A DNA stretch of 64,000 nucleotides, from contig OZ038450.1 of assembly GCA_964036195.1 (NCBI GenBank), positions 21,791,208 through 21,855,207 of the forward strand, in the 5' to 3' direction. The position numbers and the translations under genes were made by a program. Source of the stretch: Sphaerolaimus hirsutus (Eukaryota > Nematoda > Chromadorea > Monhysterida > Sphaerolaimidae). Shown piece after piece: positions 54,317 to 58,288 of the stretch. Numbering within the stretch: position 1 is the first letter of the stretch; each line of letters starts with the position of its first letter. Under the pieces are notes generated by a model. The model did no database searches, was not told the origin of the DNA, and saw nothing but the letters and a program-made list of their open reading frames with translations.

Positions 54317-57300
54317 TCAATTTTCACAATTACCATTTTCCATGTGGTGTTCTACCTGTTGCGCTGGAGCTTCCTCCGGTGGCAGTGGGATGGCCTCGAC
54401 CGCGTCGTGGTGCTCGGGCGGCGGCGAGGGGGGCTCGGCTACGTTCTGCAGTGCCATGGCCGCCATGTCGTTGCTAATGGGGGAATATTCTTCATTAGGG
54501 CGGTAAACTGGTTCGACAACGGGCACCACTTCCTCCAACACCGGCACACCCTCCTCCCGCGCGTCTGCGGAGGAGTCAGAGCCCGCGGTGGCGGTTTCAA
54601 TGTCAGACAAACATTCCGCCTGCAGTTCTTCTTCGAGGGCCGGGTATCTGTCCGGTCCGACTAGTTCTTTCAAGTCGGCCCGCGGGCGCCATTCCGGAGG
54701 CCAAAATCCCAACACGTTTCCCCAAATTTGGCCTGACTCGTAAGAGTAAATCCGGTCGGCTTTGTGCTCGACCGTCAGAAACCGGTGGAAAAAGGTTGAC
54801 CACAACATGGTCTCGGCGTTGGCCACCACGATGCGCACACATTTGGCGCGGGAGGTGGCTACGTTTCCCCGGGGCAACTCCGCTACAAATCCAACTCTAC
54901 CATACGCCTTCTTGGGGTCGGCATCCAGCTGGGCGGAGTCGGTAGGCGGGCTGCCGCGCACGCAGGAAACGATGACCACTTCCGCTTCACGGGCCTGTGC
55001 TTTGTCGGCAGTGATCACGCGGGTGGCCCAGTAAGCCGCGTCGTGTTCTGTATGGGCTACTAGTCGACTGATTAGGGCGCGCGCCTGCGCCGCATAAAAA
55101 CAGACAATTAGTAAACTAGCGGGATCGGTAAGATCTGCCCAGGGCAGGGTGGGATCTTCTTTCACCGTGGCCACGAGGTAGTCGTACAGGTGCAGGATGA
55201 TGCGCAGCTCCTTCTTGTTGATAATGGACATGCCTTCTTTCGATTCGCAGCCCTGGTGCACCAGCGTCGATGACAGCATGACGCCATCCTCGAAGTCGCC
55301 AGGCGCGGGCAACATGGTGGCGCCGTGCGCTGCAGTGTCGTTGTAGGCGCGTAGCAGTCCATTGTACGCCGCCACAGAGTTGGCCTGAATGAGCTGGCGA
55401 TGCCCGCGGAACACTGTTTCCAAGTGAACCACGGGACATAGTTGGTATTGTGTGAGCCTATCAATGAGGGTGGGGTCGGGTTTCAGGACAGGCTCCACCC
55501 AGTCTTGCACGCGAATCATACGCGTCAATTGTTTACTGTCTCCAAATAGAAGTAGCATGCCGTTCACTGGGAGCTGAGCCGCCTGAGCCACGCTAATTAC
55601 TGCAGCGTCAGACGCCAAAGACGCTTCGTCAATAATTACCGCACACGCAGTCACACTTTTTATACGGGCGTCGTGGGCGGAGTCTAAAGTGACATGGATT
55701 TGACCGGGCTGCACCACCTCCAAGAACACCCGGTGCAGCCTGACCGTAGCCCTGACATATTTAGACAGCGCCCTACGCAGCACCTTACCCCAAAATCCCT
55801 GATCAGCTAAACTAGCCTCACCAGCCCGGGCGCCCGCCACGCCTGCCTCGAAGTCATCGAATGGCTGCTCGTCTCCATCTTCGGCGGTGAGAAAGGGCAC
55901 CTGTTCAGTCAGCTGCGCGCGTATGACGGCGTCGTCCGTGCAGTTGTTGATAATTTCGTCCACCAGTTCGTAGTCCTTCTTGGCGCCGTCGTACTTTTCC
56001 AGCGCTGCCGTCCATTCGGGGCTGAGGCGGACGATGTTGTGGCCGGTTCGCTGTGCTAGGGTGTGCAGGGTTGGCAATTGGGTCGCGGGGGTGGCGTTAT
56101 AAGTGGGGTCAGTTTCCCACATGGGACTCAAAACTCGCACCGGAAATGCCGCTCTTAATTTCAAAAATTCTTCAAAACCCTCCAGTTTTTGCATTTCAGA
56201 AAATGGCGTATCAGCCATAGCGGTCCATTTCGCGCGCTCCCGCAATAAAACTTCTAAAGCCCCAAAAATATCCCGCTGCCCTAATTTATTCAGATTGGTC
56301 AGGGCCCTGCGCGCGCCTTCGTCGGCCGCCGAGTTGACCGTGCACGTGATGAGCGTCGAATGGTATTTGGCGTTCGGCTGCTTGTCCGATGGCAAGTCGG
56401 AGCCTGCGCGCACCCTGGGTCTCGAGTTATAATAATTATAGCCGCGTGAACACACATACGCCAGTTGATTTTGTGTGGTCGTCTTCCCGGACCCGAAAGG
56501 CGAGTCACACATAATCAAAAGGGGTTTGCGCATTCGCACGGCTGTGATCACAGCTCCTAAAACTTCTACCTGCCCCTGCTGCGGCAAAAACTCACCTAAT
56601 TTGGCCTGAATCATTTGTTCGTTTTTTCCTCTGAACAATGATTCGTACAATTCCTTAGCCTCGCGGCTAATGAGCGCCCAGTCAGTTTCGTCGTCCAGCA
56701 GACGCAAATTCAATATCACAGCTAATTGGATTTGCGCCTCCAGGGTGAGTACTTTTGACCCCTGGACCACTTTTGGCACCCAGCCGACCGGCGCTTTGTT
56801 CAGGGCGGCTTGCAGCGACCGCATGGTTCGGTCGTAATTGGGCGAGTCGTTCGAGCCGCGCACCATGTATCTTCCACTCTCCAGGGTTCGGGGCAGTGCT
56901 GATTGCGACGCCGCCATGTCCAACTTCGCACGCAGCATTGTAGTGGTTGGCTCTGATTCCACGCTGGTAATTCTGACTGATAGATTGGGGCTGCCCGCCG
57001 CTGGTTTGTCTTCGTCCGGTCTGGCCAGCACCAAGCTCAACACCGACATGGGCGTCGCCTGGTTCAACAGCTGTGTCTGCGTATTTACCTGCTCCAGCAG
57101 ACGAACGCGCTGCTCTTCTGGTCCTTCGAAAGTATCAGCTTGTAATTCTTCTGGGTCCGGGCGACGCACCATAATGTCGCATGCAGTGCCCTGCGGCGTG
57201 TGTTCCCAGGACACATGCGCGCACACATCCGTTGCGCGTTTCGCCCGAAACCGCAAAAATGACTTGTTATAGCAATGGGCCGCTGCTAAAATGCCCAATT

Positions 57301-58288
57301 TATACCTGAGAAACGAGTCCATGTTGTCTCGGTTCTCTGTGTCTGGCTGGATGCCCGATGTGCTGATGTCCTCGGCCGTGGCGACCTGCAGCCCGTACGC
57401 ATGGCCGTAGAATTCGTCGCCAAACACGTCCAGATCATTCAAGTCGTGATACTCGACGTGGGCCAGCCCCAACTGTCCCACACTCAAATTTTCCACTCTA
57501 CTGTCACTTACATATTCTCTGTGTAAGATGACCAACTTTTCCGGCCCGGCATCGCCCCGCTCCGCCGCGCCCAGCGGTTCCAGATTTTTGTAATTCGACG
57601 GCGTGAAGGCCGCTCGCAGCCGCGCCGTTTTCCAGTCGCTCGTGTAGGGCTGGTAGCCGGAAGTGTCGCCGCGCGTCAATGTACGTGCCGCTTGAGTGAC
57701 GCGCCGCGTGCCCTGCGTACTCACGACCACGGGGGCGGCAACGTTTAAGGGGCACTTTGTCTGATTACCCCATATCGCGACGCCGGTAAACTCCCAGTAC
57801 CGGGGATTTTCTATTTTTTGTGCGATTGCGGTCGCCGAGAAACGCATCCCGTGGCGCACCAGGGGCAGGAACATCGAGGGGTGTTGTTTCTGAATTCTCG
57901 CGCACAAATCCATCAGCTGGGTGGTCCGTTTGTCCCTAGCCGCCTTGGCCCGCTTATTCGAATAATAAAAATACGGATAGGCTTCATCCGCATTCACCCA
58001 CTGCTCGTTTTCGCTGAGTATCGCCATCGTCTGCTCAGAAATTCTCACATGGCACTGATACTCAACATGCCCGTCGGCGCCCGAGTCAATATACACCCTA
58101 TCTACCCAACCTTCGAATTTCCCTCTGCTGGGGTAGATTTCCGGTCCATTTTGCATCTGCTGCGCGCGGTAAAGTTGTCGCGGGGGAATGGTTCCGCCGC
58201 CGCAGGCACCATGTGTATTTGTTTCCTTGGATTTAATGGGCGGGGCGTCTGCACCTTCAAATGGGCGTTTGCGAGAGGCCGAAGCCAT
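54317..58288 (-). CDS. UPF1-like superfamily 1 helicase encoded by a retroelement
   Basis: An uninterrupted 1,323-residue ORF. Predicted ATP-dependent 5'-3' RNA/DNA helicase of the UPF1/SF1B type. Visible motifs: Walker A SPFGSGKTTT (about residue 600), DEAS Walker B (about 886), motif III LLLFGDSKQL (about 914), VITADKAQAREAEVVIVSC (about 1093, the family's T-D-x-x-QG-x-E region, with QG replaced by QA), and motif VI NVATSRAK (about 1144, usually NVALTRAK). The roughly 285 residues between motifs I and II leave room for accessory domains. Residues 1-590 match nothing I know. The tail (about 1230-1323) is acidic and Pro-rich with PPSPPPEHH. The start ATG (58288) is the first in frame, 227 bp downstream of the pol stop on the same strand. 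No introns needed. The intact reading frame suggests recent activity or selection. Confidence 0.9.
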   Translation of the reverse strand: MASASRKRPFEGADAPPIKSKETNTHGACGGGTIPPRQLYRAQQMQNGPEIYPSRGKFEGWVDRVYIDSGADGHVEYQCHVRISEQTMAILSENEQWVNADEAYPYFYYSNKRAKAARDKRTTQLMDLCARIQKQHPSMFLPLVRHGMRFSATAIAQKIENPRYWEFTGVAIWGNQTKCPLNVAAPVVVSTQGTRRVTQAARTLTRGDTSGYQPYTSDWKTARLRAAFTPSNYKNLEPLGAAERGDAGPEKLVILHREYVSDSRVENLSVGQLGLAHVEYHDLNDLDVFGDEFYGHAYGLQVATAEDISTSGIQPDTENRDNMDSFLRYKLGILAAAHCYNKSFLRFRAKRATDVCAHVSWEHTPQGTACDIMVRRPDPEELQADTFEGPEEQRVRLLEQVNTQTQLLNQATPMSVLSLVLARPDEDKPAAGSPNLSVRITSVESEPTTTMLRAKLDMAASQSALPRTLESGRYMVRGSNDSPNYDRTMRSLQAALNKAPVGWVPKVVQGSKVLTLEAQIQLAVILNLRLLDDETDWALISREAKELYESLFRGKNEQMIQAKLGEFLPQQGQVEVLGAVITAVRMRKPLLIMCDSPFGSGKTTTQNQLAYVCSRGYNYYNSRPRVRAGSDLPSDKQPNAKYHSTLITCTVNSAADEGARRALTNLNKLGQRDIFGALEVLLRERAKWTAMADTPFSEMQKLEGFEEFLKLRAAFPVRVLSPMWETDPTYNATPATQLPTLHTLAQRTGHNIVRLSPEWTAALEKYDGAKKDYELVDEIINNCTDDAVIRAQLTEQVPFLTAEDGDEQPFDDFEAGVAGARAGEASLADQGFWGKVLRRALSKYVRATVRLHRVFLEVVQPGQIHVTLDSAHDARIKSVTACAVIIDEASLASDAAVISVAQAAQLPVNGMLLLFGDSKQLTRMIRVQDWVEPVLKPDPTLIDRLTQYQLCPVVHLETVFRGHRQLIQANSVAAYNGLLRAYNDTAAHGATMLPAPGDFEDGVMLSSTLVHQGCESKEGMSIINKKELRIILHLYDYLVATVKEDPTLPWADLTDPASLLIVCFYAAQARALISRLVAHTEHDAAYWATRVITADKAQAREAEVVIVSCVRGSPPTDSAQLDADPKKAYGRVGFVAELPRGNVATSRAKCVRIVVANAETMLWSTFFHRFLTVEHKADRIYSYESGQIWGNVLGFWPPEWRPRADLKELVGPDRYPALEEELQAECLSDIETATAGSDSSADAREEGVPVLEEVVPVVEPVYRPNEEYSPISNDMAAMALQNVAEPPSPPPEHHDAVEAIPLPPEEAPAQQVEHHMENGNCEN

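Follow-up and report, generated by a model that had tools for sequence, protein, structure and literature searches.

A UPF1-like helicase reading frame between the long terminal repeats of a Ty3-class retrovirus-like element from the nematode Sphaerolaimus hirsutus

The 64,000-bp stretch of the Sphaerolaimus hirsutus genome considered here (contig OZ038450.1, positions 21,791,208 to 21,855,207; hereafter the window, at its full length) carries on its minus strand an uninterrupted open reading frame (ORF) for a UPF1-like superfamily 1 (SF1) helicase. Judged from sequence, this helicase is probably a working gene of a Ty3-class, retrovirus-like long terminal repeat (LTR) element of about 17.5 kb, in which the parts follow one another in the order LTR-gag-env-protease (PR)-reverse transcriptase (RT)-RNase H-integrase (IN)-helicase-LTR. 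The helicase lies between LTRs and is conserved in multiple copies that were inserted recently, the ratio of nonsynonymous to synonymous substitution (dN/dS) is low in each coding part measured, and the SF1 motif patterns are present; it looks like a gene of the element that is under selection. An initial annotation of the window had proposed that a retroelement captured the helicase, and this proposal is supported by the finding that the gene lies between the LTRs in all six copies for which both ends were mapped.

The helicase gene and the element that encloses it

The initial annotation had recognized a 1,323-codon ORF with SF1 motifs, preceded on the same strand by a pol gene of the Ty3/gypsy class, and both observations were borne out. 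Motif patterns were located by script at residues 599 (I, GSGKTT), 887 (II, DEAS), 916 (III, GDSKQL), 961 (IV-like, RGHRQL), 1097 (V, AQAREAE) and 1142 (VI, NVATSRAK), and the second RecA-like domain is recognized by the AAA_12 model (Table 1). The AAA_11 model spans residues 866-922 only and, at 19.1 bits, stays under its cut-off of 27. The protein can be divided into an N-terminal half (residues 1-560), a helicase core (about 590-1180) and a C-terminal tail; residues 1-560 gave no significant match in Pfam or PDB (best PDB E value 0.78), and single-sequence AlphaFold2 models had a mean predicted local distance difference test score of 32.8 for the core and 30.7 for the N-terminal half. The pol frame stops 226 bp short of the helicase ATG, has matches above the Pfam cut-offs to RVT_1, RNase H, the integrase zinc domain and rve, and is nearest among PDB chains to the Ty3 Gag-Pol 7q5b (2.4e-56). 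The initial annotation needs one correction here: a Gag-Env-PR-RT frame lies upstream of this pol frame and runs past base 64000.

Extension 5′ of base 64000, as the annotation had advised, recovered gag and the 5′ LTR of the window copy (c1) in the upstream flanking piece (L009). The LTRs thus lie outside the pol-helicase pair and not between the two genes, where the annotation had held that a boundary would tell against its proposal. Flanks of six copies were fetched, and the downstream piece of each was compared with its own upstream pieces; LTRs of about 1.68 kb, ending in TGTAGG...CTGACA, were found on both sides in 6/6 copies, enclosing gag-env-pol and the helicase within an internal region of about 14.2 kb. 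In each of the six, the helicase and a 0.58-kb tail stand between pol and the 3′ LTR, which starts 581-592 bases past the last helicase codon. Within a copy the two LTRs are 99.6-100% identical, differing by mismatches at 3/1,679 aligned bases in c1 and by 3/1,680 in c9, 4/1,676 in c3, 2/1,679 in c2, 0/1,681 in c4 and about 7/1,685, gaps included, in c6. The TG...CA termini are those of Ty3/gypsy (Metaviridae-type) elements, as are matching 4-bp target duplications in five of the six copies (GTAT, AATG, CTTG, AATG and TTTT; 4-6 bp are expected), GTAT standing before the 5′ LTR of c1 as well as beside its 3′ LTR. The gene order (gag, PR, RT, RNase H, IN) and the Ty3-like pol likewise agree with this class, the protease being placed by its motif and weak matches. 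A primer-binding-like stretch begins two bases past the 5′ LTR. Scanning the window for Rfam families and tRNAs gave no matches.

The genome (348 Mb in 762 contigs) was searched with the helicase, for which 35 matches were scored of 613 candidates, and with pol, for which 50 were scored of 2,268. All 35 helicase matches are dispersed, single-frame and full length (residues 1-1323), free of stops and 99-100% identical as proteins, and the separate, intron-bearing host gene that the initial annotation had considered as a counter-explanation was not found among them. A listed helicase follows 214-233 bp downstream of 23 of the 50 listed pol matches, and in each of 12 further pol matches compared, the sequence that follows matches the spacer plus the beginning of the helicase over about 1 kb, which places the helicase after pol in 35/35 informative copies.

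Table 1. Features of the element in the window (positions count from the first base of the window)
Feature	Position	Strand	Remarks
3′ LTR	52061-53737	-	about 1,677 bp; TGTAGG...CTGACA; 4-bp target duplication GTAT at 52057-52060
Untranslated stretch, helicase stop to 3′ LTR	53738-54316	-	short purine-rich run adjoining the LTR
UPF1-like SF1 helicase ORF	54317-58288	-	1,323 amino acids from ATG, uninterrupted
AAA_12 (second RecA-like helicase domain)	54815-55471	-	residues 940-1158; Pfam 8e-25; 88 bits (cut-off 27)
Splice-like signals in the spacer	58401-58437	-	CAG/GTATG at 58437; acceptor-like TTTTTAG/GAAGC ending at 58401
Second pol frame: larger part of RT, RNase H, integrase zinc domain and core	58515-61262	-	915 amino acids
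Frame change inside RT	61221-61230	-	UUU UAG C; 38-nt overlap of the two frames; arrangement common to 6/6 copies
First frame, window part: glycoprotein, transmembrane segment, protease, N-terminal part of RT	61222-63999	-	continues into the upstream flanking piece (L009)
Aspartyl protease	62143-62454	-	LLDTGA motif; Pfam weak, best 0.024, under cut-off
Glycoprotein region, Monjiviricetes_fusion match	63154-63927	-	profile 189-448 of 653; 8e-07, 27.8 bits, barely over the cut-off of 27

Constraint, relatives of the helicase and rival explanations

Across eight copies the helicase has a mean dS of 0.059, a dN of 0.0022 and a dN/dS of 0.036, the ratio being 0.045 in the N-terminal part, 0.017 in the core and 0.124 in the C-terminal tail. 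The corresponding values are 0.015 for pol (10 copies) and, in six copies each, 0.064 for env (window-frame residues 1-430), 0.014 for PR to RT (431-925) and 0.010 for the protease region (500-640); for a gag segment the ratio is 0.059 on 4/10 pairs, six pairs having been dropped for an indel. Divergence between copies is about 6% at synonymous sites and 0.5-5.6% in the LTRs. Since the LTRs within a copy are nearly identical while those of different copies have diverged, the differences probably accumulated in lineages that were replicating ahead of the recent insertions, and the helicase would have been under constraint during that period. Over the six copies, pairwise helicase distances are correlated with those of the LTRs (r 0.85) and of pol (r 0.75).

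The helicase appears to be a divergent member of the UPF1-like family whose nearest named relatives by score are SEN1 and senataxin; the UPF1 type given in the initial annotation therefore holds for the family, as indicated by AAA_12, but not for the closest relative. The best PDB chains for the core are 8ftm, 8fth and 8ftk (2.2e-06 to 1.2e-05, the lowest being that of 8ftm), followed by UPF1 at 0.012; the SEN1 type of these three chains was checked via P0024, a protein named Helicase SEN1. When residues 830-1190 were compared with a protein collection (4,784 candidates scored), five matches were obtained, of which the best, this same fungal SEN1 at 2.6e-5, was the sole one below 1e-3, and another, at 0.35, is named senataxin; with residues 560-1200 (8,000 candidates scored) no match was obtained at 1e-3. 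The element helicase shares AAA_12 and the motif patterns I-VI with SEN1/senataxin and UPF1, which belong to superfamily 1B, motif I being assigned by pattern. Sequence identity is only 21-23%, in a multiple alignment of poor quality ahead of motif II, and unlike SEN1/senataxin and UPF1 the element helicase has 288 residues between motifs I and II. The SEN1_N domain (PF12726) of SEN1 proper is not among its Pfam matches at E up to 1, nor does Pfam match the N-terminal CH zinc domain of UPF1 proper in residues 1-560. Scans of IMG/VR with the helicase and with pol (six peptide patterns each from single sequences, by which only close relatives can be reached) returned no relative, and neither did a tblastn search of phages.

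Several observations weigh against the view that the helicase is a working SEN1/UPF1-like gene of an intact element. Homology matches reach only the half of the core that holds motifs II-VI, so that motif I is placed by its pattern; when it is aligned to proteins of the SEN1 type, the Walker A patterns occupy different columns, and the sequence of motif V is AQAREAE, against QGRE or QGKE in relatives. The best NCBIfam model is TIGR00376 (1.9e-13, far under its cut-off; the library consists of prokaryote models), which represents the IGHMBP2 family and not SEN1. The dN/dS samples consisted of the matches with the highest protein scores (8 of 35 for the helicase, 10 of 50 for pol), and dN is therefore biased downwards, although all 35 listed helicases are nonetheless at least 99% identical. 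Distance correlations are moderate for pol and helicase (r 0.75) and especially for pol and LTR (r 0.41). The first frame is fully open in three of six copies (c4, c6 and, with a window-edge codon, c1), is interrupted by one stop in two (c9 and c3) and carries a gag insertion of about 0.44 kb in one (c2), and a stop is present in 2 of the 50 scored pol matches. The target duplication of c4, TTTT, is a T-run and weak, and c6 (L025/L026) is the sole copy of the six without matching flanks (TTGG and GTGT). The comparison of pol with helicase covers 35 of the 50 listed pol matches, and among the 15 outside it are two pol copies, C1:18526834 and C1:18531494, that lie on one strand only 1,915 bp apart; at least one of the two therefore cannot be followed by a whole helicase. 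The region C1:18526834-18534238 is a rearranged or nested copy, and rearranged copies thus exist; pol without the helicase, the observation by which the initial annotation had proposed to judge itself, was absent from the 35 informative copies. Copy c6, with its non-matching flanks, is perhaps a recombinant.

Other origins and uses of the helicase have to be set beside its being a gene of the element. That it belongs to an independent host gene family merely standing beside pol has next to no chance: the only point in its favour is the pol-helicase spacer, and it is contradicted by helicases that lie between LTRs with target duplications and are dispersed. A separate host gene is refuted for the six copies with mapped LTRs, which enclose the helicase, and a chance ORF was also rejected. 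Alternatively, the mRNA of a host helicase might have been transduced recently into one element and then amplified without being needed. LTR elements are able to acquire ORFs 3′ of pol (PMC6431247, seen in part), and the composition of the helicase, with 56% GC and a GC content at third codon positions of 0.64 (pol 0.45, first frame 0.50), is as for a gene of other origin. Such a passenger is nevertheless very unlikely and was rejected on the dN/dS of 0.036 over copies 6% apart at synonymous sites; also opposed to it are the lack of stops in 35/35 scored helicase copies, the fact that only distant relatives were found, and a codon usage that correlates as closely with that of the first frame (r 0.68) as pol's does (r 0.66). 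It is highly improbable, too, that the helicase is kept as a protection of the host against other viruses: a use of this kind has been proposed for insect retroelement helicases (in the part of PMC6338049 available), but constraint across many dispersed recent copies, which extends to pol, gag and env, fits selection on the element.

With regard to function, the putative helicase would use ATP to strip or unwind the long RNA of the element or an RNA:DNA hybrid. SEN1/senataxin enzymes resolve RNA:DNA hybrids. The first choice, favoured tentatively, is that unwinding would aid reverse transcription of a template of about 17 kb. Somewhat doubtful, and less likely than this, is that the helicase would shield the element RNA from surveillance or silencing, acting on host decay or small-RNA pathways, as a decoy or by unwinding double-stranded RNA, and not in replication. 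The UPF1-like fold family is consistent with such an antagonist, and silencing suppression has been proposed for the viral-type helicases of insect retroelements, for which weak activity in a plant assay is described (PMC6338049 and PMC5563155, both seen in part); the proximity to SEN1/senataxin and not UPF1, together with the lack of a Pfam match to the UPF1 CH domain, argues against it.

Polyprotein frames and predicted expression

Retroviral env genes are expressed from a spliced subgenomic mRNA, and the simplest reading of the signals found here is that the helicase, too, would be produced as a protein of its own, most probably from an mRNA of this kind. The acceptor-like site in the spacer, 112 nt upstream of the helicase ATG, may be the one used. 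Both splice-like signals of the spacer are identical in 8/8 copies, the length between them being variable; a donor-like ACAG/GTAAGT is present in gag (5/5 copies) and another GTAAGT in the 3′ LTR (6/6).

The first frame runs through Gag, a signal-like hydrophobic segment, a glycoprotein, a transmembrane segment, the protease and the start of RT. Gag is recognized by Retrotrans_gag (4.5e-06), with a zinc-knuckle match under its cut-off. Between Gag and the protease the frame holds a glycoprotein of mononegavirus/chuvirus type (62788-63999, continuing into L009), and the env piece had no PDB match at E up to 1. The change from the first to the second frame falls inside RT, and because the UUU UAG C arrangement is identical in 6/6 copies it suggests programmed frameshifting rather than damage, possibly a programmed +1 frameshift in an unusual place. 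The 70 bases past it fold weakly (-6.2 kcal/mol, calculated without shuffles), and a frameshift-stimulating structure is therefore not shown. At the other end of the frame, the first 321 codons of the 5′ part of gag (L009:2943-3905, minus strand) contain no ATG in any frame in four of five copies and a single out-of-frame ATG in the fifth, against 10-14 expected by shuffling or first-order simulation, and this extension has a dN/dS of 0.045. A start that is non-AUG or created by splicing, combined with leaky scanning that reaches the first ATG, would fit these observations and would give an extended Gag.

Outside the element no ORF of the window exceeds 265 amino acids. C-rich units (CCCCCCTCGAAATACCCCCC) occupy 48139-50332, where an inverted repeat that includes TACCGTATTTCCTCGAAATACC is present at 48139-48166 and 50305-50332, and perhaps constitute a family of short inverted-repeat elements. 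Clusters of imperfect GGCGCC-rich and GGTGCC-rich repeats are found at 48332-49075 and 50415-51271.

Comparison with known elements

The nearest precedents each share one feature with the element: Burro an in-frame env, certain insect elements an SF1 helicase, and rotifer elements an enzymatic third ORF. Burro (GYPSM1), a giant Gypsy element of planarians, resembles it in its Ty3/gypsy class, large size and extra domains, and in one long frame that holds a fusion glycoprotein of mononegavirus type, placed between gag and protease, although here the frame changes later, inside RT. The Burro polyprotein includes BIR, BCL2, ankyrin and MATH motifs, a dUTPase between PR and RT, and others; no helicase ORF is described in the part of that account available, which reports homology to a midasin-like AAA ATPase in one species (PMC6431247). 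None of the Burro-type dUTPase, BIR, BCL2, ankyrin or MATH domains had a Pfam match in the present element at E up to 1. Insect retroelements also join an SF1 helicase to retroelement proteins, but according to the portions seen of PMC5563155 and PMC6338049 their helicases are of the plus-RNA-virus type (PF01443) and reside in LINEs (long interspersed nuclear elements), the LTR cases, from Aedes and Leptopilina, being fusions to a Ty1/copia RNase H or to an integrase core domain. In the present element, unlike in those captures, the helicase has an ORF to itself within a Ty3-class element that retains both LTRs, and the alphavirus-like viral model PF01443 was rejected at 0.059 (13.6 bits against a cut-off of 21).

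Lokiretroviruses (Loki) bear LTRs and an Env related to mononegavirus fusion proteins, as does this element, but together with Odin they are described, in the sections seen of PMC9040795, as having a dual RNase H. A single RNase H region matched here by Pfam and PDB search, by which a very diverged second copy in the unassigned stretch before the integrase might escape, and membership in Loki or Odin was rejected. Troyka, with CG...CG termini and 3-bp target duplications (PMC12440569, in part), was rejected on the TG...CA termini and 4-bp duplications. LTR elements of bdelloid rotifers share an extra enzymatic ORF downstream of pol (ORF3), the types of which include esterase, exonuclease and env; in the available part of PMC5408684 the word 'helicase' occurs only in the reference list. 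Fungal fusions of host and transposable-element helicases derive from DNA transposons (PMC10799480, likewise seen in part). Among the matches listed from titles and abstract openings of open-licence PMC articles, with Repbase reports and the subscription literature outside that search, neither a complete LTR element bearing a helicase of UPF1/SEN1 type nor the combination of features described here occurred.

There is about an even chance that the element represents an undescribed retrovirus-like lineage in which a host-type (SEN1/UPF1-like) helicase is a standing fourth gene (gag-env-pol-hel), an RNA- or hybrid-remodelling motor of its own, combined with the frame change in RT and the non-AUG extension of Gag. 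To our knowledge, none of the retroviruses studied encodes a helicase of its own; the known ones draw on host factors, for example MOV10 or UPF1. The element lengthens the short list of LTR elements with captured enzymes and, besides Burro, adds a further case of an envelope in frame between Gag and protease. If the reading is true, an element with a constrained helicase of the UPF1/SEN1 family would let one ask whether the reverse transcription of long genomes or the escape from RNA surveillance is limiting.

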